Assembly: GCA_017447775.1 (NCBI GenBank)
Contig: JAFSMU010000023.1
Span: 1-50,278 of the forward strand
Length of the DNA stretch: 50,278 nucleotides
Direction of reading: 5' to 3'
DNA from: Clostridia bacterium
Lineage (GTDB): Bacteria > Bacillota > Clostridia > Oscillospirales > CAG-272
The translations under genes were made by a program, and so were the position numbers. Positions within the stretch are counted from its first letter, which is position 1; each line of letters starts with the position of its first letter. The notes under the pieces are model-generated. The model was not told where the DNA came from, did not search any database, and worked only from the letters and a program-made list of their open reading frames with translations. Positions 2,556 to 23,100 of the stretch are shown piece after piece.

Positions 2556-2581
2556 AAAAACCCCGCATACGCGGGGTTTTT
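2556..2581 (+). terminator. Rho-independent terminator after the plus-strand pilin gene
   Basis: There is a perfect 11-bp stem (AAAAACCCCGC / GCGGGGTTTTT) around an ATAC loop. A further T-rich run (TCTTTTTT) follows on the plus strand. It lies about 115 bp after the stop of the gene ending at 2440. Confidence 0.85.
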
Positions 2582-2852: not shown

Positions 2853-5800
2853 TTACTTACACAAGATTGAATAGCGTTCAGCAAGGTAACTTATATAATC
2901 CCATGTAATCATCCCTTTGCCTATCGCAACGCCAAGATACTGACCGTTAAATGCGTTAAACATCTCTTCTGTAATCATGCCGCCAAAGTCGTCAAGAGTA
3001 AGCAAGCCGTATGTTTCAATGTCTTTTTGCATCTTATCAGCGTTTATTGACATCGTTTCCGCATTCACCTCAAAGATGTTGAACAAACCGCTGATTCCGC
3101 CGGGCATAGAGAGCATTCCGTCAACGAAATAGCAAAGATGTCCGACTGTAACAGGGCTCCATGCCGTTGTTATTTCGGTTTCGATTGAAACGTCGACCAG
3201 TGTTACTTTTTCGAGCGCGGCGCCGTTTTGCTTTGCAAACGCGTGACCTATGTACTGCGAAGCGTTCTCGTCGAGGTAAACATACTTGTTCAGATCATAA
3301 TCCCAAAATCCGTGTTCGGAAATGACTTTTACTTCTGTGCCATCCGAGAAACGAAGCTTGATCACTTCGTATTCCGTTTCGGGATCGCTGTCGATGAACA
3401 TGATCGGCGCGGAGTCAAATTTGCCTGTTTCAAGGTTCCAGACAAGGAGCATTTCATCGCCGGTGAGCGTTTCGACAGGTACCTGCGTGCCGTCTGCAAG
3501 GGTGATAAGCGTGCCGGGAGCGAGGCAACCGTCGCCACCGCTAAACGTGGTTGTTAATTCCCCATCCAATAATTTACTATGATTATACAACGTGTCTCCA
3601 CTAGCCGGTTTATTGCAGTTAAATGTTTTTGAAAAATTCGCTAATGTATGCCCGCAATTATCTGAAAACGTATATGTAATGGTTGTAGTCCTATTACCAG
3701 TATTTTTACTAACAAGATCTTGTGAAGAAGCTGTAACATATAATTTCCCGCTTGCATTTACCCAAATGTTTGTTTTTCCATCTTTAATTGCTGTTGAAGT
3801 CAATTGTAATTTATAGTCTTCTCCTGTTATAGTCAATGAATTATTTGTCGTTTTTGCACTTGCCAGCACAGACGTAAAATTCAGTTCAACCACTTTATTT
3901 TGAGATGTGCTCCAATATTGTATTATCAAACCATCAAGGGGAGCCGCTGCCATTGTCCAGTCAGAACTTGTAGAATTGCTTGCAGTAACTTTATAATAAG
4001 AGCCTGAAGGATCTGAAGTTTTTTCCGGTGCCGGCAATTCGGCAATATCAGCGACAAGCGCAAGAGAAATTGTATATGTCTTTGATTCTCCCGTTGTCTT
4101 ACTTCCGTTTGTATTGAAAGATTGATCAGAAGTAATTGTAACCGTGTATCTGCTCGTTCCGGCAGAACTAAGAACGATGTTTCCAGCAACAGTATTGTTT
4201 GATGAATCTTTAACAGTATACGTTGCGTTTTCGCCCAGCAATTTAGCCGAAAGATTTGAGAAACTAAATGTATATGAACTTCCCGCACTAAGTTTTGCAG
4301 TAAACGTATAATCAAATGCAGAATTTCTTACAAATGTTTTCACATCTTCCTCTATATCGCTGTAAACAAGATGCGGTAAAGAGCGACCTTGTCTGTTCGG
4401 CGCATATTCATAAGAGGAATCTTTAAGTTCCACGGTTTGAGAATTTGCTCCGGGGGCATAAACTGCACCAGAAACGCCGGTAATTGAAATATTGTTTTCA
4501 ATGTATCCGTGATTTGAGCGATATTCATTTATATTTCTATTCGCACTATTCAAATAAATGATGCCCACATTGACATAGTTAGTTCCGTTTTTTTCAGTTA
4601 TATAATTTGTATTTGATAAAGCAGCATTTACAAACCGACTTGCAACCTTTGATGATGTTATCTCATCACCATCTTCTTCGCAAACCCAGTTGTACTGATT
4701 AAGATACCCCGAAATATTAAGTGTTGGGTTAGAAGAAACAGTAACGCCGCTATCAGGCGTTGGGCCTAATAAAATACCAAGTCCCATAACTATTTTCGGA
4801 TTATTATTGAAATCATATATCGTTCTTTTATACTGAATAGTTGTAACATCATTTAGGCTCAATGTGCCTTCCGATGAGCCGAAATGAATATTCGAGAGTG
4901 CGCCATTGGATAATACACAATTATCCAATGTTAGTTCTCCCTCCGCAAGAATATTATTTCTCGCTCCGGAAATAAACGAATTCGATATTGTTGATGTCCC
5001 GGATGATTTAACAGCAGAGTATTGATAAGCGTAATACTTTTTTGTTCCATCTGTTCTGCTATTGTTTCCACTCTCCGTTACATATTCCAAGCCTGATGCA
5101 TTATATAAATATGCTTTGGCGAATAATGGACATATTATTTTTACATTATCAAGAGTGCCATTATCGATTTTAACGTATCCATCACCCATGCCTCCGCTGT
5201 TGAGATACTCGCCAATACCACTGAATGTTATACTAAACCCATTGCCATAAAAAGCGTAATTGTTTGAAATGATAATTTCTGTAGTACTCACATCATTCAG
5301 AAGCACAACGTTATTGCTCGTCGCGTTCATTGCGCTCGTGGCGTTCATAGCGTCCACGACTTCGAGGTAAAGATCGACACTGCTATTTGCCGTTACCCTC
5401 ACCACGCCCGTGTCGTAGAATGTTATATTCCCATTGCTATATGAGCCCGAAGCACCCGTGACAGTTGTAATGTCTACATTTGTTACAGTGCCTTCAAACA
5501 GCGACGAAACAGCTACCGCATTCTGATTTCCCACGCGGTAGAGGTATTTATCGGTATTCGGGAATTTAACTCCAACGGTAAGCTGTGGTATTTCTTGATA
5601 AGTAGAATACTCGCAGCGCGAGCAAGTATCATAAGCATTCCAGCCCGCAGCGTTATAAGTTGCCGCTTGCGCCTCATGATGAACGATGTCATGCCCAAGA
5701 GGATCGGTATAATTGTCCACATGGTTTTCGCCGCAACGAGAGCATGAATATGTAGTGTATCCGGCTTCCTCGCATTTCGGTTCGGTTACAACGCCGTTTA

Positions 5801-7229
5801 TCCAGTCATGCCCCAAAGCCTCTTTGACAGAAGTTGTATTTTCGTTCGAATATAGAACATTATTGAAGTATATATTTGCCGTGTAATACGTTCTGCCGTC
5901 CGTTGTGCAACCGGGGTTGACGACAGTCGGACCGATGACCGTATTATTTGTGCCTTTCGGAGCGATGACGGAAACCGTGCTGCCGCATTCGCAAGTAAAC
6001 GTGGCGACGGCGGTAAATTCATTTTCGGCATCACCACTCCAAGACCAAGAAGGCGTTTCGCTCCAAGAATGTGTATGGGAAACTTCTGTTCCATCGTTGT
6101 TTTCGTATTTATATTCGCCGCATATCGTGCAGACCATAATGGAGCTGCCCGAAACGGTTACGAAGTTATGATCGTGCGTCGCCGTCTCGGCGTATCTCTC
6201 TTCCTCGCCGACGCCGGTGATATACAGATCGTCGCCATCATTGCCGACGTCCGTCGTGTTTGTGTATGTGGGCGGGGTGGCGAATGTGGCTTTGAGGTTG
6301 TTATTTGTATCTGCGACAAAGCTTATCGTTTTTGCGCCCGGTTTGCCGTTTATGGTAACGGTGTTTTGCGTGTTTGTGTTTTTTACTGTTCCCTGAACGG
6401 AGCCGGATTCAAGATCGACTATAACGCTCCCTTTGCTTGCGCTCGCGTCGATAACGACGACAATTGAGCCGCCCTCGGCGACGTAGTGGCCGCCGGTGAT
6501 CGTGGCTTTAAGCGCGCCGCCGTATTCGTGATAAGAAAGCGTGCCGCAGTTGATCGTCTGGTCGCCGGAGTCGCCGAAATGGGCGATAGTGCTGTTTGTC
6601 GTGTCGGAAACGAAAAGGTCTGTGCCGGTGTTGTTTGTGCGAAGGATAATATTGCGGGTGGAACCCGTTTCCGTGTACTCATACTTAACACTTTCTATCC
6701 CGTAGTTTTCGCCCACGTCAAAGCCGACGGAAACCGAAACGCTTCCCGTCTTGTTATTCCCGTCAAGGTAGATGGAGTAAGTTTGCTCCGTGGGAACGGG
6801 AACTTCGTCGTAGAATACGAAATACGCGACCTTATCCGTTACGTCGCCCGTCTGTTCTCCCTCGGGAGACGGAAAAATGAATTTATCGTTTTCGTTTACG
6901 CCGTCACCCTTTTTGATAATGACAAAGCGGTCATTCACGCTGTCCCACGCTACGAAGTTATCACCGCCAGAGCCGATAGAACGAACCTGCTCGACCGCAA
7001 ATCCGTTGGCTTTTGCGGCGGCAAGCGCATCGTGCATGGAATTATGATGCACGGCGTCGATCTTTATTGCAGTATTCAGATTTCTTACCGTTTGAATATC
7101 CGTCGACTCGCTCGCCTTCTTCACGATGGAAGAGAACGTCGGTATAAGCACCGCCGCCAAAATGGCGATAACCGCGATGATGATAACAAGTTCAACAACG
7201 GTAAATCCATTTTTCCTTTTTATTTTCAT
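2853..7229 (-). CDS. Prepilin-type giant protein with C-terminal Hint domain
   Basis: This 1458-residue protein opens with a textbook prepilin leader (KRKNG/FTVVE, then a hydrophobic helix to LIP). A module of about 250 residues shared with the neighbouring 691-residue protein follows (NLNTAI…HDAL, RTN, SYHEYGG). The middle holds CxxC-bearing segments (SCSRCGE, TCSRCEY) and a long Ser/Thr/Asn-rich beta-helix-like region. The end is a Hint domain starting at Cys1235 (GCLAPGTLITLADGT, codon 3525-3527). It continues with LTGDEMLLVWN and the block B-like VISEHGFWD, and ends near CYFVDGMLSMPGG. The usual terminal His-Asn of inteins is absent. About 80 further residues follow the Hint core. The Hint family performs an N-S acyl shift at the first Cys, giving autocleavage or ester transfer; this activity is inferred here. 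The ribosome site AAGGAG precedes the ATG. It is the last gene of the phase-variable operon. The region of about 3540-5330 is more AT-rich than both ends. Confidence 0.85.
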   Translation of the reverse strand: MKIKRKNGFTVVELVIIIAVIAILAAVLIPTFSSIVKKASESTDIQTVRNLNTAIKIDAVHHNSMHDALAAAKANGFAVEQVRSIGSGGDNFVAWDSVNDRFVIIKKGDGVNENDKFIFPSPEGEQTGDVTDKVAYFVFYDEVPVPTEQTYSIYLDGNNKTGSVSVSVGFDVGENYGIESVKYEYTETGSTRNIILRTNNTGTDLFVSDTTNSTIAHFGDSGDQTINCGTLSYHEYGGALKATITGGHYVAEGGSIVVVIDASASKGSVIVDLESGSVQGTVKNTNTQNTVTINGKPGAKTISFVADTNNNLKATFATPPTYTNTTDVGNDGDDLYITGVGEEERYAETATHDHNFVTVSGSSIMVCTICGEYKYENNDGTEVSHTHSWSETPSWSWSGDAENEFTAVATFTCECGSTVSVIAPKGTNNTVIGPTVVNPGCTTDGRTYYTANIYFNNVLYSNENTTSVKEALGHDWINGVVTEPKCEEAGYTTYSCSRCGENHVDNYTDPLGHDIVHHEAQAATYNAAGWNAYDTCSRCEYSTYQEIPQLTVGVKFPNTDKYLYRVGNQNAVAVSSLFEGTVTNVDITTVTGASGSYSNGNITFYDTGVVRVTANSSVDLYLEVVDAMNATSAMNATSNNVVLLNDVSTTEIIISNNYAFYGNGFSITFSGIGEYLNSGGMGDGYVKIDNGTLDNVKIICPLFAKAYLYNASGLEYVTESGNNSRTDGTKKYYAYQYSAVKSSGTSTISNSFISGARNNILAEGELTLDNCVLSNGALSNIHFGSSEGTLSLNDVTTIQYKRTIYDFNNNPKIVMGLGILLGPTPDSGVTVSSNPTLNISGYLNQYNWVCEEDGDEITSSKVASRFVNAALSNTNYITEKNGTNYVNVGIIYLNSANRNINEYRSNHGYIENNISITGVSGAVYAPGANSQTVELKDSSYEYAPNRQGRSLPHLVYSDIEEDVKTFVRNSAFDYTFTAKLSAGSSYTFSFSNLSAKLLGENATYTVKDSSNNTVAGNIVLSSAGTSRYTVTITSDQSFNTNGSKTTGESKTYTISLALVADIAELPAPEKTSDPSGSYYKVTASNSTSSDWTMAAAPLDGLIIQYWSTSQNKVVELNFTSVLASAKTTNNSLTITGEDYKLQLTSTAIKDGKTNIWVNASGKLYVTASSQDLVSKNTGNRTTTITYTFSDNCGHTLANFSKTFNCNKPASGDTLYNHSKLLDGELTTTFSGGDGCLAPGTLITLADGTQVPVETLTGDEMLLVWNLETGKFDSAPIMFIDSDPETEYEVIKLRFSDGTEVKVISEHGFWDYDLNKYVYLDENASQYIGHAFAKQNGAALEKVTLVDVSIETEITTAWSPVTVGHLCYFVDGMLSMPGGISGLFNIFEVNAETMSINADKMQKDIETYGLLTLDDFGGMITEEMFNAFNGQYLGVAIGKGMITWDYISYLAERYSILCK

Positions 7230-7259: not shown

Positions 7260-9335
7260 TTATTTTTCGATAAAAGCAACGTTGTCGGAAGATACGTCAC
7301 CCATCGTGTATGAGTAAGAACCGCATTCGATTCTCTGTGCGCCGTCAGGTGAGTATATGCAAAGTTTAACAGTTATAGTTGTGCCGGCGTTTGCGCTGTG
7401 CATATTTGCAAAGCCGCATTCAAAGCTCTGAACGTATGCAAGGATCTGCAAATAGTTCTGGCTCCATTCGCCGTCTTTGTTGTTGAATATCGATGCGCCC
7501 GTTTCCATAAGTTTTACGGATTCGCCCGCGTCAAGCTGATACGGCAGGCCGAATCCCGTCCATGCGCCGTCGTCCCACGCGTTGTATGCGCCCGCAAGAA
7601 CTACCGTTCCCGCGTCTACCGTTCTGTCAAATGAAACTTCCCAGTCGACCTTCCAGTCGAGGTAGTCCGCCTTGTCGGCGAACATAGTTCTTATCGTCTG
7701 TGCAGCCGTTGCCGAACCGTTTTCTTCAAGATATACGCAAGCCGCCTCAACAGCTTCCGGCGTGATCTGATTTACAACGCTGAATACCGGCGTGCCGTCA
7801 GCGTATTTAGCGTTTGCAAGAAGTTTGACCGCGGCGTATTCCTCGTCGCTCATGCCCGAGAATACGAATGCTTTATCAAGCCATGCGTCAGGCGTGTACA
7901 TAGCGTTTTCGCCAAGCGTTTTGCCCGAGAAGAAAGATCTGAGATCCCAGATGTTGTGAACGACAGCTCTGTCGGCTCCCGTTACGTATGCTTTGACTTT
8001 GACAGACGCGTTTATCTCTTTTTCTTTGTTGTCGGCGCTGTCGCCCGATTCTTCAACTACGTCGCCGAGCGTCTGCTCTGTCGTTTTTTCGTCAACTGCG
8101 TTGCCGTTTTTGTCAGTTACGGTGAATTCTCTCGTTTCCTCGTTGAACTCGACCTTGACCTCGCTGCCGTCGACAGTCTTTGTAACGACGATGATGTTGC
8201 CATCTTCATCTCTTCCCGCGTAGTTGTTGGCTATCTGGAAAGCGACGTCCTTGATGTCGTCGTTGGCTTCGGATTTGTCGACCCAAATAAGATTTTCGCC
8301 GTCGACCTTCGCGATCTTGATCTGCTCGTAAATACCCTGCTTGAACAGGTAAATCACCTCTGTTTCGCCGTTTACGGTGATAGTGCAGACCTTTGTGCCG
8401 TCCTCTTCGTTGATCTCGACTTTATCTCTGGAATAAAACTCCGGTATCGGAGCGCCCTCTACTATGATAACGTCGATCTCATTGAACGTATCGGCGCCCG
8501 TTGCGTCTGTGTTTCCGCTCTTTTCAAAGTGGATAGCTTTAACATTCGATGATTTTGCAAGCTCGATCTTGCCCTTTGAAACGGTTATGAAAGTAACCTC
8601 GCCGTACTCGTGGTAAGAATTCGGAGCGACGTCGATGACCGTCACGCGCGATGACGTGCCGTAGTGCTTAACAACGTCCTTCGGGCCGTTGATGACAAGC
8701 TCTTCGCCGTTTGTTCTGATTATTACGCTTCTTTCGTTTGTATTTGTGTATTCAACGGTGACAATGCACTGGTTTTTGCCGGAGTCAAGCCCCTTGTCAG
8801 TCTTTACGTTTGTCAGGCTGTCGTTCTGAACGAGATATGCCGAGAAACGCGAATTTGCACCGCCAAGGTCGAGCGCGCCGTCTTTGACGTTCATTTCGCT
8901 TGTCTGATAAATTTTGAAATATGCAACGTCGGATGGCGTTGTTTTGGGTTTGTATTCGGGGATGTAAACTATCTTGTTCTTCTTTGCGTCAAGGTAGCAG
9001 AAAAGGTCGTTGTCGGAATCCCAAAGGATCTCGTTTTCGTCGGACGATACGTTGATCCTTTCAAGTATGTAGCCCGCCTGTTCAACGCAGTCGAGCGCGT
9101 CCTGCATCGTTTCGTGCTTTACCCCGCTCTTTTCGATCGCCGCGTTGAGATTCTTGACAAGCAGCGTATCTGTGTTGAGCTTTGAGCTGTTAAGGTAGTT
9201 TATGAGCATGGGTATTCCGAGCGCAAGCAGAAGAAGCACAAGGATGATGATTACTACTGTTTCGATCACAACAACTTTTTTGTTGTTTTTCTTTTCCGGG
9301 TTTTTCTTTTCAACCGGTTTTGCGTTTTCGTTCAT
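7260..9335 (-). CDS. Pseudopilin-like membrane-anchored protein, degenerate leader
   Basis: This 691-residue protein is paralogous to the N-terminal part of the downstream Hint protein. Shared landmarks are NLNAAI, MQDAL, a WDS motif, VIIRTN, KHYG and SYHEYG. The N-terminus is Lys/Asn-rich, followed by VVVIETVV and a long hydrophobic helix ending in GIP. The pilin Glu+5 and the Pro are kept, but the Gly at -1 needed by prepilin peptidase is replaced by Lys. It may therefore stay as an uncleaved membrane-anchored protein. Residues about 330-450 are acidic and charged. The C-terminal 250 residues form a separate domain (DLRSFFSG … WDDGAWTGFGLPYQL) that I do not recognise. The ribosome site is AGAGGAGA nine bases before ATG. 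The gaps to its neighbours are 54 and 30 bp, which fits one operon. Function unknown; pilus or surface-fibre role inferred. Confidence 0.75.
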   Translation of the reverse strand: MNENAKPVEKKNPEKKNNKKVVVIETVVIIILVLLLLALGIPMLINYLNSSKLNTDTLLVKNLNAAIEKSGVKHETMQDALDCVEQAGYILERINVSSDENEILWDSDNDLFCYLDAKKNKIVYIPEYKPKTTPSDVAYFKIYQTSEMNVKDGALDLGGANSRFSAYLVQNDSLTNVKTDKGLDSGKNQCIVTVEYTNTNERSVIIRTNGEELVINGPKDVVKHYGTSSRVTVIDVAPNSYHEYGEVTFITVSKGKIELAKSSNVKAIHFEKSGNTDATGADTFNEIDVIIVEGAPIPEFYSRDKVEINEEDGTKVCTITVNGETEVIYLFKQGIYEQIKIAKVDGENLIWVDKSEANDDIKDVAFQIANNYAGRDEDGNIIVVTKTVDGSEVKVEFNEETREFTVTDKNGNAVDEKTTEQTLGDVVEESGDSADNKEKEINASVKVKAYVTGADRAVVHNIWDLRSFFSGKTLGENAMYTPDAWLDKAFVFSGMSDEEYAAVKLLANAKYADGTPVFSVVNQITPEAVEAACVYLEENGSATAAQTIRTMFADKADYLDWKVDWEVSFDRTVDAGTVVLAGAYNAWDDGAWTGFGLPYQLDAGESVKLMETGASIFNNKDGEWSQNYLQILAYVQSFECGFANMHSANAGTTITVKLCIYSPDGAQRIECGSYSYTMGDVSSDNVAFIEK

Positions 9336-9389: not shown

Positions 9390-9875
9390 TCAATTCAAAA
9401 GTCGCCCGAGTTCGAGGTATGTATTCTTGCGATCGGCAAGGAATACGCCGTCGCCATTTTCAAATATTATCTTTTTTGTGTGAACGGCGTCTTTGTGTTT
9501 GCCGTTTTCTTTGACGATGCGGTAAACGCGGTACGCGGCGAGGGCGGCGATGACCGAAACGACAACCGTCACAAGCAGTGACGTTATGACCGATCCGACG
9601 GTCAGCGTCTTGAACGCCGCAAGCGACGCCGTCAGCCAATCTACCTGCGTCAGTATGAACGCCTCAAACTTCGTGTCAGCATAATAAACGCTGCCAAGGT
9701 TCTGCCGCAATACGTCGGATACTATATACGTCGAGGCGTAAATAAACGAAACGGCAAAAAGGGCGCCGAACAGCACCGAAACGGCGCGCATTTTATTCTT
9801 GTTGAAAAATCTTATAACGTAAGCGCAAGAAACGACCGACATTATAAGCAGCGCCGACACTTTGAGCAGCTCCAT
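9390..9875 (-). CDS. Small membrane protein, first gene of the switched operon
   Basis: I start this 161-residue protein at MELLKVS (9875), because AGGAGG sits seven bases before that ATG. An in-frame ATG seven codons upstream would only translate the ribosome site. Three hydrophobic segments are evident: about residues 2-20, 30-52 and 95-125. An extracellular stretch (SDVLRQNLGSVYYADTKFEAF) lies between the second and third. A basic cytoplasmic tail follows. It resembles no family I can name. It is the promoter-proximal gene of the pilin-Hint operon, 30 bp from the left repeat of the invertible segment, so its mRNA leader crosses that repeat. It could be a membrane partner for export or assembly of the two pilin-like proteins; this is inference. 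Confidence 0.7.
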   Translation of the reverse strand: MELLKVSALLIMSVVSCAYVIRFFNKNKMRAVSVLFGALFAVSFIYASTYIVSDVLRQNLGSVYYADTKFEAFILTQVDWLTASLAAFKTLTVGSVITSLLVTVVVSVIAALAAYRVYRIVKENGKHKDAVHTKKIIFENGDGVFLADRKNTYLELGRLLN

Positions 9876-9904: not shown

Positions 9905-9925
9905 TAATCAATATTATGTTGTAAA
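9905..9925 (+). repeat. Left 21-bp inverted repeat of the invertible segment
   Basis: The sequence TAATCAATATT…TTGTAAA is the exact reverse complement of 10118-10138 over 21 bp. It contains a recombinase-style layout: inner arm TATGTTGTA (9915-9923), an 8-bp core ATCAATAT (9907-9914), and a weaker outer arm TATCACATA (9898-9906). Confidence 0.92.
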
Positions 9926-9961
9926 TGCTGATTTTACCAGCACTATATATTTATTTGATTA

Positions 9962-9990
9962 ATTGTATCATATATTTTCCGAAAAGTCAA
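9962..9990 (-). promoter_or_regulatory. Sigma-A promoter inside the invertible segment
   Basis: On the minus strand, TTGACT (9985-9990) is separated by 17 bp from TACAAT (9962-9967). An extended -10 TG lies just before it. The expected start is near 9955, giving an 80-nt leader that includes the left inverted repeat and a small TGCTG/CAGCA hairpin (9926-9942). Confidence 0.88.
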
Positions 9991-10033
9991 GAGCGAGGCA
10001 AATAAAATCGATTGCAAAAATATGTATTTTCGA

Positions 10034-10067
10034 CCTGTTTTGCATAGATATGGCAAAACGGGTTTTT
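10034..10067 (+). terminator. Terminator inside the invertible segment
   Basis: A 10-bp stem (CCTGTTTTGC / GCAAAACGGG, one G-U pair) has a 9-nt loop and is followed by TTTTT on the plus strand. In this orientation it faces the recombinase side. After inversion it would face the pilin operon and block read-through. Confidence 0.75.
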
Positions 10068-10117
10068 GTGCTGCCGTTTTTTGGATTTTTTTAGTTGCCA
10101 CTTTCGATTTATCGCCG

Positions 10118-10138
10118 TTTACAACATAATATTGATTA
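10118..10138 (-). repeat. Right 21-bp inverted repeat of the invertible segment
   Basis: It is the exact reverse complement of 9905-9925. The full site is more symmetric than the left one: arm TACAACATA (10120-10128), core ATATTGAT (10129-10136), arm TACGTTGTA (10137-10145). The arms agree at 8 of 9 positions, as in Xer/dif-type recombination sites. Confidence 0.92.
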
Positions 10139-10168
10139 CGTTGTATCGCCGTTCACGCGGTGATTTTT

Positions 10169-11011
10169 TTACATTATCAGGTGCATATTTTCCATACGGC
10201 GACGATGCTCTGTGCCGGTTGAGATAATGTAAATTCTTGTGGTGTTTATGCTTGCGTGGCCGAGGATGTCGGCAAGTTTTGCGATATCCTTGTCTATCCC
10301 GTAAAACACCCTTGCAAAAAGGTGGCGAAGATTGTGCGGGAACACTTTCGTCGGGCTGACGCAAGCGTCGGCGCATAGCTTCTTCATCTCGCGCCAGATG
10401 TTGGAACGGTTGACGGGCTTTCCCGTGCGAGTTATAAAAATACACCCGGATTTTATATTTTGCTCCGCCGCGTAGCGGAGCAATTTCTTTTGAAGGTCGC
10501 GTACCAAAAACACGTCGCGCGTCTTTCCCTTGCATCTGACGCTCGCAACCCCGCGCCGCACGGCGTCGCAGGTGATATATTCAAGCTCGCTTACCCTTAT
10601 CCCCGTGCCGCATATAGTCTGTAAAATCAGCAATAGCCTATTGTTTTTCGCGTTTTCCGCCGCTTTGCAAAGACGAATGAATTCGGATTTTGTAAGCTCT
10701 TTTTCCTCCGGGCGATAGATTTCCTTTTGAATTTTGATCGGCTTCACTTTGAGGTCATCCCTGCCGACAAACGAAAAAAAGCTGCAAAGCGACGCTATCA
10801 TCGAGTTAATGCTCCGCGCGGCAAAGCCGCTTTCGATAAGCGTTTTTTTGTATAAAATTACATCATCCTTTGTGATGTCATCTCCGCCGCACCGGCTGAG
10901 AAACGCACGGACGTCACGCGAATATTTGTCGATCGTCGCGCGACTTTTTTCATTTTGTTCAAGATGCTTTTCAAACTTTATAACGGCTTTTTCGGTGATC
11001 GTTTTTTTCAT
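10169..11011 (-). CDS. Tyrosine recombinase, probable invertase of the adjacent switch
   Basis: This 280-residue protein has the two-domain layout of Xer/phage-type integrases. An N-terminal SAM-like core-binding domain covers about residues 5-85, and the catalytic domain about 105-270. The catalytic residues are visible: Arg139 (GTGIRVSEL), Lys161/163 (RCKGK), His226 and Arg229 (PHNLRH), His252 (LGHASINTT) and nucleophile Tyr261. The enzyme should be active. The ribosome site GGAGGG precedes the ATG. The gene ends 30 bp from the right inverted repeat. No phage or conjugation genes are nearby, which argues for a dedicated DNA invertase rather than an element integrase. It is not a housekeeping XerC/D by context, although the families are closely related. 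Confidence 0.9.
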   Translation of the reverse strand: MKKTITEKAVIKFEKHLEQNEKSRATIDKYSRDVRAFLSRCGGDDITKDDVILYKKTLIESGFAARSINSMIASLCSFFSFVGRDDLKVKPIKIQKEIYRPEEKELTKSEFIRLCKAAENAKNNRLLLILQTICGTGIRVSELEYITCDAVRRGVASVRCKGKTRDVFLVRDLQKKLLRYAAEQNIKSGCIFITRTGKPVNRSNIWREMKKLCADACVSPTKVFPHNLRHLFARVFYGIDKDIAKLADILGHASINTTRIYIISTGTEHRRRMENMHLIM

Positions 11012-12976: not shown

Positions 12977-13012
12977 AAAAAAAGCGTATCGGATGACCGA
13001 TACGCTTTTTTT
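12977..13012. terminator. Bidirectional terminator between convergent genes
   Basis: A 16-bp perfect stem (AAAAAAAGCGTATCGG / CCGATACGCTTTTTTT) closes an ATGA loop. It has T-runs on both strands, so it serves both the lipoprotein gene and the NRPS operon. The stop codon of the PP2C gene overlaps its edge. Confidence 0.9.
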
Positions 13013-15128
13013 ATTTGATCTTTTTGTGGACCGTAAGCCTGTTCAGCCCGCCCGCGTCCGAGTACTCGATGCCGTCGGAAATATTTTTGACTATCATTAT
13101 TCCAAGCCCGCCGATCTTCCTTTGGGACACGTCGACGTCAACGTCGGCGTCCGGCGATTTTATCGGATCAAACGGCGCGCCGTTGTCGGTAAACGTCATT
13201 TTCACTTCTCCGCCAAGGACTTTGAGCGATATTTCAAGACGCGGCTCCGCCACGCCGTCAAAGGCGTAGCTTACGTAGTTGTTTATAAGCTCGTCGATGA
13301 TGACGTCAAGCTCCGCGATCTTTTCCCCGTCGCCGCAAAGCTGCGAGTTTATCCGATCCGTTATTTTCGGTATATCGTCATATGTCGGAGGAGAAAGGGT
13401 TATGACGTCCTCTTTTGCCACCTCGATAAGCAGCATCGTAACGTCGTCAAACTGCTCTTTCTCACCGCAAAATTCGCAAAGCTTGCCGTAAAGGGACGTA
13501 AGCACCTCGCCGTTTGAATCTTCAAGCGCTTTTTCGATGCGCTCGTAGCCGAATTCCTCGTTTGACGCGTTGATCCCTTCGTTCAGTCCGTCGGTGTAAA
13601 GAAGCATCCTGTCGCCGCCGCAAAGCTGTACCGTGTCGCTGACGTAGGTAAAGTTGGGAAAACCGCCGAGGATAAAGTTCGATTCTTCGCTTATCTTTTC
13701 AGCCTTGCCGCCGCGCAGAATAAACGGCTGCTCGTGTCCCGCTCTTACATACGTCAAAATCTTCGTATTCACGTCGTAAATGGCGATAAACGCCGTGATG
13801 AACAGCCCCTCTTTGTTGTTTTTGCAAAGCTCGTTGTTGACCGTCTGCGCTATTTCAACGACGTTCATGCCCCGACTCGCGCACGAGCGGATTATCTCCT
13901 TGCCGCGCATCATAAACAGCGCCGCAGGCACGCCCTTGCCCGAAACGTCCGCGATGACGAAAAACAGCCTGTTTTCGTCTATCATAAAGTAGTCGAAAAG
14001 GTCGCCGCCGACTTCTTTTGCCGGTCTTATGAAGCTTTCGATGCGGACGTTTTTGCACATAAGCGGCTTTTCCGGCAGGGATTCAAGCTGGATCTTGCTC
14101 GCAATGCCAAGCTCCGCGCGCATACGCTCCTCGGTTGCCGTCTTTTCGGATATTTCCCCGACGTAGCCGATTATCCTCTCTTGAAGCAATCGGAAATTCT
14201 CGGAAAGCGCGCCGATCTCGTCGTGGGACTTTACATTCGTATCGATTATTTCAAGCGTGCCGCCGCGAGTCAAGCGCGAGGTGAACTCTATCGCCGATTC
14301 CGACAGGCTCTTTATGTTCTTGACTATGTACTTATTCGCAAAAATGAGGTACACTATCAGCATCAGCGCCGTTGCGACAAGCATCGTCGCCACAAGCGTG
14401 AACACAAATTCCATTTGACTGTTTACAAGCCTGTTTATCGAGTAGTAGCACGCGCAATACGCCACGATCTCCCCGTCCTGTGTCTTTATCGGCGAAAACC
14501 CGCCGAAAAGGTCGGATTCATAAAACGCGACGCTCACCTCCGAGCAAAATACCTCGTTTTTCAGCCTTGTGCCGACTTTTTCAAAGCTTGCCGGGAAGTT
14601 GTAATCCCGGGAACTCGGGGGCGTCGAGTCGAAAAGGAAGACCGAGTTTTCATTTTCCTCATCGTAATAAACGACATAGCCGCCGATCATCCCGTCAGAC
14701 GATGAAATAAGGTCGATATACCTCAGCACCTCATTCCGAGAGTTGTTGAACTGTGCCATCTGGTACGAAAGTCCAAATCCCGTTCGCGGAGGAAAAACCC
14801 CCTCCGTTATCTCGGAGAAATATTTTGACTTTTCTTCATAGGAGACTGTGCCATCGTTGAGGATGAGGTCGATCTTGTCCATATTTTCCCTGTATATTTT
14901 ATCGATCTTTTCCTTGTATTCGGAAAAGAAATCGCTGAATTCATCCTCGATAACGCCGCTTATTTTAAGCGATGAGGTCTTGCACAGGTTCAGCGTGTCG
15001 TTTCTTGTTTTAAGCATGAATATCACCGACGAAACGGCGATGGAAACGATGATGAACGCAAGCGAGAGCGCCGCCGTAAGCAGAAAGATCTTCTTTTTGA
15101 TTGAAAACTTTTTAATAGAAAATTTCAT
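13011..15128 (-). CDS. Membrane PP2C phosphatase fused to anti-sigma-type ATPase
   Basis: This 705-residue signalling protein has a TM helix at about residues 12-38, an extracytoplasmic sensor region (about 40-235), a second TM (about 240-265) and a HAMP linker. A SpoIIE/RsbU-type PP2C domain (about 340-575) follows, then a C-terminal HATPase domain (about 590-705). PP2C metal-site Asp motifs are present: VGGDLFDYF, IADVSGKGVPAALF, LLYTDGLNEG and QFDDVTM. The ATPase domain keeps the N box (DELINNYVSYAF), G1 (DNGAPFDP) and G2 (GGLGIMIVK). By family, the phosphatase should dephosphorylate a STAS protein and the ATPase domain should phosphorylate one or bind a partner. The start codon overlaps the STAS stop codon (ATGA), so the pair is translationally coupled. 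It is the last gene of the NRPS operon. The signal sensed is unknown. Confidence 0.88.
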   Translation of the reverse strand: MKFSIKKFSIKKKIFLLTAALSLAFIIVSIAVSSVIFMLKTRNDTLNLCKTSSLKISGVIEDEFSDFFSEYKEKIDKIYRENMDKIDLILNDGTVSYEEKSKYFSEITEGVFPPRTGFGLSYQMAQFNNSRNEVLRYIDLISSSDGMIGGYVVYYDEENENSVFLFDSTPPSSRDYNFPASFEKVGTRLKNEVFCSEVSVAFYESDLFGGFSPIKTQDGEIVAYCACYYSINRLVNSQMEFVFTLVATMLVATALMLIVYLIFANKYIVKNIKSLSESAIEFTSRLTRGGTLEIIDTNVKSHDEIGALSENFRLLQERIIGYVGEISEKTATEERMRAELGIASKIQLESLPEKPLMCKNVRIESFIRPAKEVGGDLFDYFMIDENRLFFVIADVSGKGVPAALFMMRGKEIIRSCASRGMNVVEIAQTVNNELCKNNKEGLFITAFIAIYDVNTKILTYVRAGHEQPFILRGGKAEKISEESNFILGGFPNFTYVSDTVQLCGGDRMLLYTDGLNEGINASNEEFGYERIEKALEDSNGEVLTSLYGKLCEFCGEKEQFDDVTMLLIEVAKEDVITLSPPTYDDIPKITDRINSQLCGDGEKIAELDVIIDELINNYVSYAFDGVAEPRLEISLKVLGGEVKMTFTDNGAPFDPIKSPDADVDVDVSQRKIGGLGIMIVKNISDGIEYSDAGGLNRLTVHKKIK

Positions 15129-15424
15129 ACGATCGTGAGCGTTTTGTTGAATCCCGCAACGGAGAAGATCTCGGAAACGACCTTGTTTATGTTTCTGATG
15201 ACCATTTTGTTGTTCGTTTCCATCACTTGTCTTTGAAGCGCGAGGATAAGCCTCAGCCCCGCCGACGAAATGTACTCGACGTCGGTAAAGTCGAAGTCGA
15301 TGTCAAGCCCTGCCGTGCCCTCTTTGTCAAGCATTTCGTTGAGCTCAAGGCTCGTCACCGTGTCAAGCCGTCCCGATACCGCGACGAAAAGCGTACCGTT
15401 TTCTTTTTTGATGTTTGCCTGCAT
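15125..15424 (-). CDS. STAS-domain anti-sigma factor antagonist
   Basis: This 99-residue single-domain protein is of the SpoIIAA/RsbV type. The phosphoacceptor loop is intact: FTDVEYISSAGLR, with Ser53/Ser54 as the phosphorylated position by homology. In this family the unphosphorylated form captures an anti-sigma kinase, and a PP2C phosphatase restores that form. Here the likely partners are the HATPase domains of the genes on either side. The ribosome site AAAGGAGAA overlaps the end of the MATE gene 3 bp upstream, and its stop overlaps the PP2C start. No sigma factor gene is in view. Confidence 0.88.
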   Translation of the reverse strand: MQANIKKENGTLFVAVSGRLDTVTSLELNEMLDKEGTAGLDIDFDFTDVEYISSAGLRLILALQRQVMETNNKMVIRNINKVVSEIFSVAGFNKTLTIV

Positions 15425-15427
15425 TTT

Positions 15428-17182
15428 TTAATTCTCCTTTGCAATATTTATTTCAAGGACCGTGTTGTTTAGACTCAGCACCCTTAAATAAGTCATTTTA
15501 CTTACAAGCCCTTTTATAAGGCTTATCCCCCCGGCGGCGTCGCCGGAACGCCTTTCATATTTTGTGGGATCGAAAACGACGCCGTCGTCCCGTATGCGAA
15601 GCACCATTTTGTCGTTGACGATTTTGAGGTTTACGTCGATGGTGTTCCTTCGCTTTTTGTTATATCCGTAGGAAATGATGTTGTCTGCTATTTCCTCGCC
15701 CGCAAGAGCCACTATCTGCGCGTCGCGCTCGCTCATTCCGTGCGCGCGCGAATAGCTTACAAGCTCCTCTGACAGCACCGCGCTTTGCTGAATGCTTGTG
15801 TCGATGCTGACGTCGTACGAGTCCTCAACGCTGTACGGCGGTATCATAAAAAGCCCGTAGCCGCGCAGTTTTTTGCGCTTTTGGTAGATAAAGACGAAGG
15901 CGTAAGTCAAAATAAGCGTAAACAGCTCCGTCAAAAACTGCGACATGGCATACCCCATAAGCCCGTTTGCGTAGAGCATTGATATCGTCAGCGGCAAAAC
16001 AAGCACCGCCTCGCGCAAAGCGACCGTTATCATCGACGGCGTGTTTTTGCCGATCGACGGGTAGTATGACATACTGAACTTGTTCAGCTCATACGGGATA
16101 AACGCAAGCAGATACACGCGCATAATGGCAAAGTACTCGTCCCCGACAACGTCAACGCCGAACATCTTGCAGTAAATTCCCGGGTTTATCATAAGTATGC
16201 CCGTCAGAGCGGCGGTGACGATAATGGTCAGAAAATACAGCCGCCGCGCCGCCGCGCGAAGCGAAAAATAATCCTCCTCGCCGTAAAATACGGCGCACAC
16301 CGTCGGAATAAGCTGATTTATTCCGCCGACAAGCAGATCGAAGCCGAAAACAAAGTTCGCCATAACTCCGAACACCGCTTGAAGAGCCGGGTCGGTCACG
16401 ACGTTTGCGATTATGATGTTCGCCACCGACATCTGCACCGCCGTCAGTATCATATTGAGGGCGGACGTCATAGACGCGCGCACGCTCTCGCCCAAAAGCC
16501 TCGCCGAGCCTTTGATTTTAAGCGAGAACGATAGCATCCTCTTATCGGATCGTATGTAGAACACAACGGCGACCATGCCGACAGCATATCCCGCCGCCGT
16601 CGACAGAGCGGCGCCGTACATATCCATTTTGAATGCACTTATAAACAGCACCTCAGAGCCGACCTTGACGATATTTGAAACGACGAAGAACGCGGACGCG
16701 ATCCTCGGGCTGTTGTCCGTCGAGATAAAGAACGAAAGCAGCAGCGCAAGCGTTATCACCGGGTTTGTGACAAGGTAGACGAAGATATACCGTCTGCCAA
16801 GCTCGCACAGCTCCGTCGGCAGATAAAGGGACGCAAGCGGCGCCGATATCACGGGCGCAAGAAGCGCAAACACCGCCGACGCGCCGACGCCCGCGATCAT
16901 ACAGATCGAAAACGTCTTTGACGCCTTCTCCGTTTCCCTTTTGCCGAGATATGCTCCGACGGCGATAGCGCCGCCCGTGCCTATTGCAAAACCGGGGAGC
17001 TGAATTATGAAAAGTATCGGCATGACAAGGCTTGACGCCGTCAGCGCCTGATCGGAAATGAGGTTTCCGACGATGATGCCGTCGGCAAGGGAGCCGAACT
17101 GCATCGCAAGCACCATAAAAAACGACGGCAGCAAATACTGATACAGCTTTCTGTCAAGTAGTTTTGAGTTTCTTTTCAGCAT
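15428..17182 (-). CDS. MATE-family transporter fused to anti-sigma-type ATPase
   Basis: Residues 1 to about 440 form a MATE efflux protein with about 12 TM segments (FGSLADGIIVGNLI, GTGGAIAVGAYLGK, INQLIPT). After a short linker, residues about 455-584 are a compact HATPase domain of the RsbW/SpoIIAB kind. It has the N box ALAGEEIADNIISYGY, G1 IRDDGVVFDP and G2 GGISLIKG. MATE proteins normally lack any such domain and end near residue 450. The gene shares an A with the NRPS stop (TGATG), so it is coupled to it. Export of the NRPS product is the obvious job. The ATPase domain suggests that export is linked to, or sensed by, the STAS/PP2C partner switch encoded next. This functional link is inferred. 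Confidence 0.88.
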   Translation of the reverse strand: MLKRNSKLLDRKLYQYLLPSFFMVLAMQFGSLADGIIVGNLISDQALTASSLVMPILFIIQLPGFAIGTGGAIAVGAYLGKRETEKASKTFSICMIAGVGASAVFALLAPVISAPLASLYLPTELCELGRRYIFVYLVTNPVITLALLLSFFISTDNSPRIASAFFVVSNIVKVGSEVLFISAFKMDMYGAALSTAAGYAVGMVAVVFYIRSDKRMLSFSLKIKGSARLLGESVRASMTSALNMILTAVQMSVANIIIANVVTDPALQAVFGVMANFVFGFDLLVGGINQLIPTVCAVFYGEEDYFSLRAAARRLYFLTIIVTAALTGILMINPGIYCKMFGVDVVGDEYFAIMRVYLLAFIPYELNKFSMSYYPSIGKNTPSMITVALREAVLVLPLTISMLYANGLMGYAMSQFLTELFTLILTYAFVFIYQKRKKLRGYGLFMIPPYSVEDSYDVSIDTSIQQSAVLSEELVSYSRAHGMSERDAQIVALAGEEIADNIISYGYNKKRRNTIDVNLKIVNDKMVLRIRDDGVVFDPTKYERRSGDAAGGISLIKGLVSKMTYLRVLSLNNTVLEINIAKEN

Positions 17183-20100
17183 CAGATGTCACCTCTTGTA
17201 AAGAAGTCGAGCGAGCGGAGCGCTTCGATAATGCGAAGCAGGTAATCATCGTCCGTTATCGGCCACCTGTAACCGAGGCGATACAGCGCCTTTATGGTAA
17301 AGGTGTTGTCTGTCAGGATAAATTTATGAAGCAGGCTGTCGCTTGACGAATACGATATAAGGCTCGATACGAGCATATTTTTCTCGTCGTCCTCCATCAT
17401 TTTCGAGAGCGCGGAGTTGAACGTTTCGTCGTCGACGATCTTTATATCAAAGCCCGACGAGTTCATCGCGTCGATAACGTCGCCCATTTCCACCTCGTGC
17501 GAGTTTGCGGCGTGGAACAAGGTGAACTCCCTCGGCGTCTGCGACAGGAGCACAACGGCCTTTGCGACCTCGTCTATCGGCGAAAAGTCGATGCGCGCGT
17601 CGCACCCCGAAACGGGAAACAGTCCGAGCGACTTGTAGCCTTTGAGGTCGCGGATAAATCCGTTTGTGATGGAGTTTATCTGGAATTCGCCGTCGCTTTG
17701 ACGTCCCATAAGGTTGCCCACGCGGATGATCTTCGCGTCAAGCCCGCCGTCGATAGCGTCAAGCACGGCGCGCTCCGCCATGAACTTCGAGTTGACGTAC
17801 TTGTTTGAAATATCCTGCCCGACGTCAAGCTCGTTTTCGTGAACGCGGAACTCGTCCGCAAATTTTCCACCGACGTTCTCGCCCGCAACGGAGAGGGTCG
17901 ATATCTGGATAAGCCTTGCGCCGTGCGCTTTTGCGACGCGGATCATATTTTTAAGTCCGCCGACGTTGATGCGCTCGATGATGTCGTCAGCCGCGAAATG
18001 CTTTACGCACGCGGCGCAGTTGATGACGGTGTCAAACTTCACGTCATTTAGCAGTTCGTCGATATTTTCTGCCGTGATGTCAGCGTCGACAACGTCAACT
18101 CTTCCCCGCGCCCACTCGTTTATCGGCGCGTCGAAATAGTACAACATCATCGCGTCAAGGCGCGTTTTCGCGTCGAGCCTGCCGCCTCTGACAAGCGCGA
18201 CGACGTTGCACCCGTCGGCAAGTAATCTGAAAAGCACGTGCGCGCCGAGGAATCCCGTTGCACCCGTCAAAAGAACTGTTCCGAGAGGCCTTTCGAGTTT
18301 TATCCTATCGACGTTTTCGCAGATATTGTGCGAGATCGCGCCCTCGTTATCGCGGATATTTTCCACCGTCACCGCTTGTTTTTCCGTGTTCTTTGCGCCG
18401 GCATTGATATGCTCTTCAAGCTCTTTTACGCTCGGGTAGTCGAACACGTCCTTGTATGCTATGGCGATGCCTCCCGCAAGCGCGAGCATCGCGACCTTCG
18501 ACGCGGACAGCGACGTGCCGCCAAGGTCGAAGAAGTCGTCGTCAACGCCGACCTCGCTCACTCCGAGCGCGCGGCAGAAGAGCGCGGCTATCTTTTTTCC
18601 AAGCTCCGTTGTCGGCGCTTTCACGTTTCTCTTTTCAACGCTTGCCTGCGGCTCGGGAAGCGCGCGCTTGTCGATCTTTCCGTTTGGAGTAAGCGGCATT
18701 TTGTCAAGCTTTACCATGATCTTCGGGATCATATACGGCGTCAGCGTCTTTGAAATGAACGATATAAGCTCGCTCTTGTCGAAATCTTTGCGTGCGGTGT
18801 AGTATGCGACGAGGTGATCGCCCTCCGCTTCGCTGTTTTTGACTATAACGACAGAGCTTGTAACGTACTCGAATGAGTTTATCGCCTTCTCTATTTCGTC
18901 AAGTTCAACGCGAAGACCGCGCAGTTTTACCTGGTTGTCGAGTCTTCCGAAGAACTCGACGTTGCCCTCGGAATTGTACCTTGCAAGGTCGCCGGAGCGG
19001 TACGCCCTGTCGCCTCGCACGGAAATGAAGCTCTGCGCCGTCTTTTCGGGAAGCCCGAGGTAGCCCGCTCCCACAGACTCGCCGGCGATGGTGAGGTCGC
19101 CGATGGCGTTGATCGGCAATATCTTGCCGTATTTATCGAGAAGATACAGCTTTGTGTTGCCGACGGGCTTGCCTATTGTGATGTATTTGTCCGTCACGTG
19201 ATGATACGTGCAGGTGACAGTCGTTTCCGTCGGGCCGTAGCCGTTGTATATCTCGGCTTCAACTCCCGCCTCGCGCAGCTTTAATACAAGCTCTGGCGAA
19301 ACGGCCTCGGCTCCCATATCGAGAACTTTCAGCTGTTTTAACGCCGCGACAAAGTCGGGCGCGTCAAGCGCGTTTGAAACGTATGACGGGGTAAGGAACA
19401 TAAGATTTACGCCGTTTTTCTTCATCGTTTCGGCAAGGACAAGCGGATTCTCTATATCCTCGTCGCTTGCTATAACGACGGTATATCCGTGGCTGAGCGG
19501 TACGCACTCCTCTTGGATCGACGCGTCAAACGACAGCGACGCGAATGAACACGAAACGACGTTGCCGACGTATCTGTACTCGTATGTCGCAAGGTTGCGC
19601 CCGTCAAGGCAGTAGTTTACGATGTTGCGGTTCGTTATCATAACGCCCTTCGGCTTGCCTGTCGAGCCTGACGTGAATATGATGTAGCACACCGCCGACT
19701 GCGGTATATCGACGCACGGCGAAGAATCGCGTCCGTTTTCGAGAATATCCTCGATGGCGAGCGCCGAAACGCCGAGTTTATCTATCATCTCACGCTTTGA
19801 CGCTATGATCTCACGCGTGGAGATGACCGCTTTTGCGCCGGAGGTCGATATGATGTACTCGATGCGCTCGTCCGGGTATTTCGGATCTATCGGCACAAAC
19901 GCCGCGCCCGATTTCATCATTCCCTGCCGCACGGCGTATGCGTCTTTGACGCGCGGCATAAGCACCGCCGCTTTGTCGCCGACGGCAAGGCCCCGATCGA
20001 TAACCGTGTTTGCGACCTTGTTTGCCGCCCTGTCAAGCTCGGCGTATGTGTATTTTCCGTCGCGCGCGATGACAGCCGTCTTGTCGGGATTTGCCTTTAC

Positions 20101-23100
20101 GCTATCGCTGAACAGTTTGCAGAACGGAACGTTTGGCACCGGCACCGCCGTATCGTTGAACGCGTCGTAACGCGAAAGCTGTTTTTCGCCGACAAATTCG
20201 ATCTCCCCTATCGTCTGCTTTGTTAAGATCCCCAAAAGGACGCACTCCATTGAGTCAAAGAACGAATTTACCGTGTCGGCGCCGAATTTCAAGCCGTCGT
20301 ACTCAAAGCGGAAGCGGTACTTGCCGTCCTCGATGAAAACGTCGAGTGAGAACGCCGATTTCGGCTCGGTTGAGTCGAGCAGGATCACCTCGGCGCGCTC
20401 CCCGCCGATACTGTCGAACACGAAATTGTCGCCCTGGTATGCGAACATCACGTCGGCGGAAACGCTGTGCGCCGTCACTATATCGGAAAATGAGAATATG
20501 TCGTTTGCCTGCGATGTGCGAAGCTGCTCCGAAACGGCGGAAACCGCCGCCGAGATATTCTCTTTTACGTCGTATTTTATAAATACAGGCAGCGTTTTGA
20601 CAAGCATCGAAACGTCGCGCTCCGTTCTCGGATCGCTGCGGCCGCTGTAGATCGTTGTAAAGTATGCGTCGTCCTTGTAGATAAAGCGCGATAGCACAAG
20701 GCCGAATGCGAAGTTGAATATGCCGTTTGGCGTCGCGCCGTTGTCGGCAGCGAATTTTGATATGGCGTCAACTGAAATATCAGATATTATATCGGCACAC
20801 GCAAGACCTGCTTTGCCCGCTTTCATATCGTTTTTCATAATGTAATCGGAGCCGACGTCGCGCAGCAGCTTTTCATAGTATTCGCGCGCCGCGCCAAAGC
20901 GGGCGGATGCGCGCTCGATCTGCTCCGCAAGCGCGATCTCATACCCCGTGTACGTTTCGTCTTCGGGCATTTTCCCGAGGTACGCGTTCGATATATCCTC
21001 GATCATGACCGCCTCGCTCGTTCCGTCGCATACGATGTGGTGGAAGTCGAGGAAGAGGTAGTTCGCGTCGGCGCATGTGTATATCTCCGCTCTGTAAAGC
21101 GAGCCGCCGAGAAGCGTGAACGGGCGGACAAGCGCCGATTTATCGAGCTTGTCGGTTTTTATGATATCGACTTGCGGCTCGACGTCTTTTCTCAAGATAA
21201 CAACGTTGCCGTCGTCGTCTGTTCCGAGGGCGCTCATAACGTATCTGTGGGCTGAAAGCGTCGCCTTTATCGCTTCGCAAAGGCGCGAAACGTCGATTTT
21301 TCGGTCGAGCTTGAACAAGAACGGGATATTGTAGACCGTCGTTTCCGGGCGCGATATGCATTCGACAAAAATGCCCTCCTGCGTCTTTGTAAGCGGGTAT
21401 TTGTCGCGTTTTTCAAACGTTTTTTCGTAAGAGGCGCCGCCTATGAACTTCGCCAAGGCGCGCGCAGTGGGGTTTTGGGTGATGTCGCTGATCTTTACCG
21501 TCTTTGAAAACGCCTTTGAAAGCTGGACCGTCAGCTTTATCGCCGTAACGGACGTAAGTCCCGCGGCGTAAACGTCAGTCGTTACGCCAAACGACGTATG
21601 CCCGACGATCGACGCAAGTATATCGTAGACCTTCTTTTCGTCCTCCCCCTCGGGCATAACGATCTCCGCCGCCTCCATTTTCGGCTCGGGGAGAGCGCGT
21701 TTGTTGACCTTCTGGTTTTGGTTGAGCGGTATTTTGTCGATCTGCATTGTAAACGCGGGGATCATATACGGCGGCTTGTTTTTGCCGATGAAGGCGTTGA
21801 GCTCGTCAACGTCTATCTTTTCGTCGGATACGATATACGCCGCGATGAATTTTATCCCCGACGGATCGGTGAAGTCTTTGACGGTCGCGTCTTTTATTTT
21901 CGGGAATTTTCTGATTATCTGCTCCACCTCGGTAAGCTCGACGCGGAAGCCGCGGATCTTTACCTGCCCGTCGTTACGTCCGATGAAGTCGACGGTGCCG
22001 TCGCATAGCAGGCGAACAACGTCGCCCGTTTTATACAGCTTTTCAAAGCGGGGATCCGGGTCAAACGGGTTTTTGCCGAATGCTTTTTTGTTTTCTTCGG
22101 GGCGGTTGAGATAGCCGCGCGCGACCTGCGGGCCTGATATGTAAAGCTCGCCCTTGACGCCCCACGGAACGCGCTTGCCCTGCGCGTTCAGGACGTAGAA
22201 TTTGTATGTCGATATATTTTTGCCGATAGGCACGCGGTAGTACAGCTTGTCAACGGGGTGTTCCGTGCAGAAAACGGTGCCCTCCGTCGGACCGTAGGCG
22301 TTGTGCAGCACGTAGTTTTTCGGCGGCTCAACAGGCACGAGCTTTTCCCCGCCGACGAAGAAATGGCGCACTGTTTTGAGTTCTATTTCCTCAACGACCT
22401 GGCGGCCGACCTGCGTTGTGATAAGCGAGTGAGTTATGCCCGTTTTGTTGAAATATTCGCCAAGGCGGACAAGGTCAAGGCGCATATCCTCGGGTATGAT
22501 GCAAACTGTCCCGCCCGCCGTTATGGCGGTGTAAAGGTCCATCATATTCGCGTCAAATCCGTACGACGCGTATGCGGACATTTTCGAGGACGCGTCCTCG
22601 CCGTATGCCTTGTTGCAGTAGCGGCAGAACGCGACGATGTTTTTGTGTTCAAGCATAACGCCCTTCGGAAGCCCCGTCGTGCCTGATGTGTAAAGCATTA
22701 TAAATAGATCGTCGGGGCGAGGGCGCGTTTCGGGGCGCGATGCGTCCGTCAGCGCGTCGATCTCGTCAAGATAAAGACGGGCGCCGTCAAAATCCGGGAT
22801 AAGCGAGTCGAGCGAGCGGTCGAGAATGACGATCTCAGCACCCGCGTCCTTCATCATAAACGAAAGGCGCTCCGTCGGGTACGACGGGTCGAGCGGCTGG
22901 TAGGCGGCGCCCGATTTTATGACGCCGAGGCTGGCGATCACCGTATATTCGCATTTCGGTATGAGCACGGAAACGACGTTCTCGCGCATAGCGCCGAGCG
23001 ATATCAGCTTGTTTGCTATCTTATTCGATATTTCGTCGCCCTCGGCGTACGTGTACCTTTTGTCGCCGAACTCGACAAGCGTGTGCGACTGATCGCGCGA

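Follow-up and report, generated by a model that had tools for sequence, protein, structure and literature searches.

In E. coli, the fim switch consists of the 314-bp segment fimS and the tyrosine integrase FimB (PMC9993118), whereas in the gut Clostridia enzymes of tyrosine recombinase group 35 have been found to adjoin 32 of the 33 invertons of group 139, with changes of orientation seen in sequencing reads (Jin 2025, PMC11892184). The present analysis concerns a locus of comparable anatomy in a stretch of 50,278 nucleotides from a Clostridia bacterium of the order Oscillospirales (contig JAFSMU010000023.1 of GCA_017447775.1; hereafter "the window"), which is contig C21 of a 1.79-Mb assembly of 35 contigs: a 192-bp segment (9926–10117), invertible by inference from homologous switches, lies between two inverted-repeat arms, with the gene of an Xer-like tyrosine recombinase (10169–11011, minus strand) on one side and three minus-strand genes on the other. 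We consider it very probable that this recombinase flips the segment, which would make its predicted promoter face a predicted three-gene operon (ON, the assembled state) or point away from it (OFF); the last gene of that operon encodes a giant prepilin with a predicted Hint fold.

Fim makes chaperone-usher pili, whereas the locus described here has type IV-like giant pilins, as well as dif-like half-sites with a variable 6-bp core and predicted terminators. XerC and XerD act at dif, whose half-sites are CATAA-N6-TTATG; the recombinase family and the half-sites of the window, which we take to resemble dif, are shared with that system, but instead of the single dif site of chromosome resolution two inverted copies flank a segment beside a dedicated recombinase gene, and the core varies between loci. 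The proposed switch would share with fim an invertible promoter segment of similar size, a linked tyrosine recombinase and the ON/OFF control of a pilus operon (PMC9993118), but fim has two recombinases (PMC2784873) against a single Xer-like enzyme here. The RecV switches of C. difficile, such as cwpV, are similar to the one proposed here in that a tyrosine recombinase of the Xer type inverts some 200 bp of DNA in front of a gene for a surface protein; there, however, recV does not lie near cwpV, the cwpV promoter lies outside the segment and the OFF state has been proposed to arise through a terminator (PMC2784873, PMC5903667), while the strong predicted promoter of the window sits inside. 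With inverton group 139, the locus shares a tyrosine recombinase beside short invertible segments in gut Clostridia; the recombinase family of the window is probably the group 35 family or a sister of it, but the text consulted names no pilin or Hint target for group 139 (PMC11892184). Tyrosine-recombinase-linked invertons of gut Clostridia had thus already been described; literature searches found, by title and abstract, no printed pilin-Hint or pilin-inverton target, and a giant prepilin with a Hint domain as the target is, so far as we could find, new.

Recombinase, repeats and predicted promoter of the window

The recombinase of 280 residues matches Phage_integrase with 78 bits, and residues R139, K163, H226, R229, H252 and Y261, which we take to be the tyrosine recombinase catalytic set, are intact and invariant over 21 aligned sequences (the window's included); the gene ends 30 bp from the recombinase-side arm. 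The claim of a complete tyrosine recombinase gene adjoining the segment, made in an original prediction from the letters alone, is borne out by this full-length frame with its intact active site. The operon-side arm (9905–9925), with half-sites ACATAA and TTATGT around the core TCAATA, and the recombinase-side arm (10118–10138), which has ACGTAA as its outer half-site, form a perfect inverted repeat of 21 bp. The segment enclosed codes for nothing, being intergenic between the recombinase gene and the three-gene run. Within the window, the arm pair is the sole perfect inverted repeat of at least 18 bp at a spacing of 40–1000 bp; no such repeat arose in 40 first-order Markov resamplings of the window (all resamplings reported here, whether for repeats, promoters or hairpins, are of this kind and not exact dinucleotide shuffles), and a search of the 1.79-Mb assembly that tolerated as many as 3 mismatches gave no further copy of the pair. 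The gene-free stretch 9905–10138 and its perfect bounding repeats, unique in both window and assembly, are therefore as first claimed; concerning the arms, their Xer-like character was correctly recognized but the 8-bp core was not, the core that varies between loci being 6 bp long.

The match to Phage_integrase might suggest that the repeats are the ends of a mobile or integrating element of which the recombinase is the integrase; the chance of this is very slight, and we regard the reading as ruled out by the position of the recombinase outside the repeats and by the emptiness of the segment. Furthermore, target genes vary between loci while the order of the parts stays the same, and among phage records no close match to the recombinase was found, the best (43.5%) lacking such repeats.

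The segment contains only one strong predicted promoter, of the extended -10 type (TTGACT-17-TACAAT with TG; 9962–9990, minus strand), which faces the operon with its -10 element ending 36 bp from the faced arm; the single strong promoter of the earlier claim thus holds as a consensus prediction with, as described below, a conserved geometry. Behind the promoter, a hairpin with a T-run (10033–10067, plus strand; score 18.4) is a predicted terminator, and a second, fixed predicted terminator, found by a hairpin search of the window, lies outside the segment and antisense to the recombinase gene (10145–10171, plus strand); the G-T pairs of this latter hairpin would form solely in the antisense transcript.

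In the mechanism that we propose, the recombinase would flip the segment via strand exchange across the 6-bp core between the dif-like half-sites ACATAA and TTATGT. In the ON state, the segment promoter would drive the predicted three-gene operon; in the OFF state it would run toward the recombinase gene, where the fixed antisense terminator would stop the transcript before that gene is reached; the internal hairpin, now inverted as well, would counter any transcription that continues past the recombinase gene toward the operon.

Conservation and orientation of the cassette in related loci

The comparison covers 111 loci: besides the window, 30 stretches were taken from whole genomes, and a further 80 are the best of at least 592 relatives in GTDB records. 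A relative of the recombinase is encoded in at least 592 of at least 595 pattern-matched stretches of GTDB species genomes, a scan which may omit the genome of the window or near ones; nearly all of the best 80 belong to metagenome-assembled gut genomes of Clostridia type, and repeat pairs behind a related recombinase also occur in two named strains, Monoglobus pectinilyticus (L183) and Pusillibacter faecalis (L182). Inverted repeats were found behind the recombinase in 75 of the 111 loci, and in 69 of the 76 which have at least 800 nt of downstream sequence (71 of 76 once the loose motif filter of the search is removed); the same search was positive in 0 of 106 loci in the 800 nt upstream, in 0 of 64 at 3.0–3.8 kb downstream and in 0.4% of 228 resampled stretches.

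This close linkage of the repeats to one recombinase group, in 69 of 76 testable loci, speaks against inversion of the segment by another enzyme, such as a paralogue or the housekeeping XerC/XerD. Such an origin might be suggested by the half-sites, which resemble dif, and by the Xer relatives within the same genome, a paralogue on contig C2 (49%) and a distant one on C20 (27%); however, the switches on C2 and C20 have arms different from those of the window, which suggests that the recombinase is specific for its own site, and we consider the involvement of another recombinase improbable.

Of the 75 repeat loci, 67 have a recombinase-side arm of the form ACATWA-N6-TWATGT, the window with its ACGTAA falling outside these 67. 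In contrast to the shared half-sites, the 6-bp core occurs in 45 forms over the 67 loci (between-locus agreement in 1.5% of pairs), and within each locus both arms carry the identical core (67/67). The identity within loci is partly by construction, because loci were picked by arm identity, but the contrast between common half-sites and a core varying between loci is not; at positions -10 to -7, just outside the half-sites, the two arms agree in merely 34–55%. Shared half-sites with a varying core fit strand exchange across a 6-bp overlap.

A best promoter score of at least 12.5 is reached by 56 of the 75 segments, compared with 3.9% of 1500 resamplings, and the distance from the -10 element to the faced arm has a median of 44 bp. 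By promoter direction, 15 segments are called ON, 53 OFF and 7 unclear (11, 41 and 23 under strict rules). Hairpins are frequent as well, with scores of at least 18 in 21 of 75 segments against 1.6% of 375 resampled ones; where direction can be assigned, the T-run of the segment hairpin opposes the promoter in 31 of 44 cases (p 0.011). Between the recombinase stop and the first arm, a hairpin was found in 27 of the 60 loci with enough spacer; in 25 of the 27 the T-run is antisense, in the remaining 2 the two strands are alike in this respect, and in no case is the T-run a sense one. The script used for the relatives missed the window's own spacer terminator, which the separate terminator search placed at 10145–10164 on the plus strand.

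These hairpins raise the alternative that, as proposed for cwpV, inversion works mainly by moving a terminator, with transcription coming from a recombinase promoter outside the segment. The hairpin with a T-run in the window segment, the score of at least 15 in 43 of 75 segments (7.2% of 375 resampled ones) and the tendency of the hairpin to oppose the promoter are all consistent with it; nevertheless, no feature is as regular as the strong predicted promoter, which lies within the segment and keeps a constant spacing to one of the arms, while the cwpV segment is described as having no promoter (PMC2784873). Since the relation between hairpin and promoter is loose, a terminator contribution of the cwpV type stays a rival, albeit one to which we give little weight beside the reading that the promoter itself is inverted.

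In the loci examined, the cassette begins with the recombinase, frequently followed by an antisense terminator, and continues with the first arm, the promoter segment, the second arm and the target genes; this order is constant while the target genes differ. The targets of the relatives include surface-type proteins (prepilins, camelysin-type, collagen-like, cohesin/dockerin and leucine-rich-repeat proteins) besides signalling or transport genes, as well as Band-7, zinc-ribbon and TetR proteins, each of these named types in 3–6 of the 106 proteins scanned. In four switches (L137, L039, L099 and L048) the arm sites are duplicated, a tandem pair standing at one end or at each; nested or alternative inversions could result. 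One genome of the order (G041; L054–L057, L059–L061 and L065) holds at least 7 copies of the recombinase group, several of them cut by contig ends, and two of its loci adjoin prepilin genes.

The original prediction was to fall if reads and related genomes never showed the opposite orientation; homologous switches do show it. Among 102 homologous segment pairs aligned by BLAST, without use of the promoter calls, pairs with opposite calls are reversed in 29 of 30 cases and pairs with equal calls are collinear in 49 of 58 (14 of the 102 involve an unclear call and were not scored); the pairs share members and hence are not independent. Between species, in the pairs L103/L105 and L105/L106, the recombinase and the downstream DNA are collinear and the segment is reversed. 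In the genome of the window itself, the switches on C2 and C20, both of which precede pilin genes, have arms identical to each other; a 119-nt stretch from the recombinase tail into the first arm is 98% identical and the downstream flank is collinear, but the two segments match each other in opposite orientation (77% over 199 bp), the C2 promoter pointing at the recombinase (OFF) and the C20 promoter (TTGACA-17-TATACT, read by eye) at its pilin gene (ON). By promoter direction, the opposite state is also seen in L127, whose recombinase is 57% identical to that of the window: its arms are present, its promoter is called OFF, and the operon behind it encodes a small membrane protein, a homologue of gene 2 of the window (34% over 668 aa) and the first part of a gene 3 homologue (48% over 139 aa).

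Contigs also tend to end behind the recombinase, within 550 nt in 21 of 80 loci compared with 1 of 80 before it; this limit was chosen after viewing the list, the counts being 15 and 0 at 300 nt and 26 and 2 at 1000 nt. Five of the 21 near ends fall at the arm motif (L091, L099, L102, L113 and L129), where an assembler would fork if both orientations coexisted.

Several observations weigh against an active promoter switch. Sixteen of the 21 near contig ends are not at the arm motif, and some contig ends may stem from repeated recombinase genes, as in C2 and C34; 7 of the 76 loci with enough downstream sequence lack the repeats; nine same-call pairs are reversed (weakly, E 2e-5 to 1e-3) and one opposite-call pair is not. 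The segment hairpin has the same direction as the promoter in 13 of the 44 directional cases, so that opposition between internal terminator and promoter is no strict rule; in further segments hairpins run both ways (16), are absent (8) or stand without a promoter call (7), and under the loosest hairpin criterion 57% of resampled segments are positive too. The window's own segment has been seen in the ON orientation only, in the single assembly analysed, and three same-genus genomes (G001–G003; completeness 63–91%) contain distant recombinase matches only, with a best E of 6e-13.

These last two points, together with the outer half-site ACGTAA which leaves the window outside the 67 of 75 loci fitting the consensus, might indicate a relic locked ON, that is, a segment once invertible which no longer flips in this lineage. 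Against such a relic speak a full-length recombinase frame that retains the catalytic residues, repeats free of mismatches over 21 bp, and a further locus (L045) which likewise pairs the ACGTAA half-site with a full-length recombinase; we therefore think a relic unlikely. On the other hand, the ON/OFF phase switch of the original prediction is supported by its anatomy, by the conservation of that anatomy and by the opposite orientations of homologous switches, all of which are observed; the comparison with relatives makes inversion very likely, and we infer from it that inversion occurs at the window's own site, by the window's recombinase, with ON/OFF transcription as its outcome.

The proposed target operon and its predicted Hint fold

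The three minus-strand genes begin beyond the operon-side arm and are separated by gaps of 54 and 30 bp. Gene 1 (9390–9875) encodes a small membrane protein of 161 aa, the ATG at 9875 behind AGGAGGTG having been picked as its start by eye; gene 2 (7260–9335) encodes a pilin-derived membrane protein of 691 aa, and gene 3 (2853–7229) a prepilin of 1458 aa with an N-terminal methylation motif at 7146–7220. The N_methyl match of gene 3 at C21:7146–7220 is 26.3 bits, above the cut-off; other scans gave 20 bits, just under 21.2. While the L127 homologue of gene 2 has a prepilin motif (KKGYTIVEL), gene 2 itself reads KKVVVIETV and seems to have lost the Gly-aromatic cleavage motif. A hairpin with a T-run at 2556–2581 (plus strand), between gene 3 and a convergent pilin gene of 808 aa, is a possible end of the operon.

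For the last 227 residues of gene 3, structure prediction gave a confident model (pLDDT 88.6), in which a Hint fold (3087–3530, minus strand) is followed by a helical extension (2856–3086, minus strand). Foldseek matched the model to the DnaB intein, to an intein-like domain of Clostridium thermocellum and to Hedgehog (TM by target length 0.86, 0.80 and 0.77, respectively), while the Pfam Hint match (E 0.0019) is below its cut-off. Cys1235 and His1306, which we take to be the Hint junction Cys and the block-B-like His, are invariant over 15 aligned sequences. Splicing inteins end in His-Asn with a following nucleophile; unlike inteins and Hedgehog proteins, with which the predicted fold, the junction Cys and the block-B-like His are shared, the family continues after the Hint fold with a helical extension, and its consensus lacks the terminal His-Asn and nucleophile. 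Indeed, a C-terminal Asn with a following nucleophile is absent from the consensus of the 15 sequences, from the window protein and from four further proteins with the module. With no splicing Asn, cleavage or transfer appears likelier than splicing.

The Hint module was found in 1784 of 4117 candidate database proteins. Among the large candidates, the C-terminal module with its helical extension is highly conserved, and the N-termini were varied in four proteins inspected; prepilin, SipW-type, SLH or repeat domains occur among the best 120 of the 1784. Literature searches turned up no paper on the processing of a C-terminal Hint module.

As for the pilin-like operon including a Hint protein which had been claimed, gene 3 agrees as a prepilin with a predicted Hint fold and gene 2 agrees in part, being pilin-derived without a prepilin motif, but gene 1 is not a pilin; similarly, the Hint domain is present in the target of the switch but is not tied to the switch. 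A conserved linkage of switch and Hint is ruled out by its occurrence in 2 of the 111 recombinase loci, a count which covers at most about 9 kb behind the recombinase and often less. Conversely, the switch as a fixed part of the operon is ruled out by genome G368, in which the same gene types (small membrane protein, prepilin and prepilin-Hint) stand together: no recombinase among frames of at least 130 aa and no such repeats were found at this cluster. Matches to gene 2 at E 1e-20 occur, among 394 genomes of the order (its own included), only in its own genome and in G368.

Genome-wide, there are an assembly ATPase, three matches to A24 peptidases and eight to N_methyl; contig C6 shows T2SSE (465 bits), one match to Peptidase_A24 and two to N_methyl. 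In the ON state, a prepilin peptidase from another part of the genome would trim the gene 3 protein, which would also process itself at Cys1235 by means of its own Hint domain.

Other giant pilins of the genome and significance of the proposed switch

At the left end of the window, the gene convergent with the operon (14–2440) encodes the 808-aa prepilin, which over 221 residues shares 54% identity with the pilin that follows the C2 switch; the DNA preceding the gene lies off the contig, and another switch may sit there. Positions 1–141 are the same 141 bases as the right end of C6 (L170) and form the 5' end of two different giant pilin genes, which then diverge; this shared start of C21 and C6 is an assembly fork at a common pilin start. 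The recombinase of C34 (L037) has an N-terminal half of its own and a catalytic part that over 224 nt is 97.8% identical to its counterpart on C2 (L036), and the recombinase tail at the start of C20 (L167) is 98% identical to C2; these recombinase genes are mosaics, possibly produced by exchange at shared sites. On the other side of the locus, the neighbours at 13011–24411 include a SpoIIE-type phosphatase with a kinase-like ATPase domain and, by eye, a STAS-like protein, a MATE-like transporter with an ATPase-like tail and an NRPS-like (nonribosomal peptide synthetase-like) protein of 2409 aa.

The recombinase group is widespread, and its cassette is compact and rule-bound in the loci examined; given no more than an assembly, its rules allow ON and OFF to be told apart, and the core that varies indicates where recombination takes place. 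The target of the window switch is unusual, and sister switches lie elsewhere in the same genome. We put forward, tentatively and as the less probable course, that the genome holds a multi-locus, phase-variable repertoire of giant pilins, in which at least three switches (window, C2 and C20) each gate a different giant pilin, the identical arms of C2 and C20 could recombine between loci and so reshuffle pilin, recombinase and promoter, and the Hint domain of the window pilin would cleave the ectodomain or couple it covalently at the surface. If this were true, the pilin of the window would form a self-processing, phase-variable adhesive pilus.
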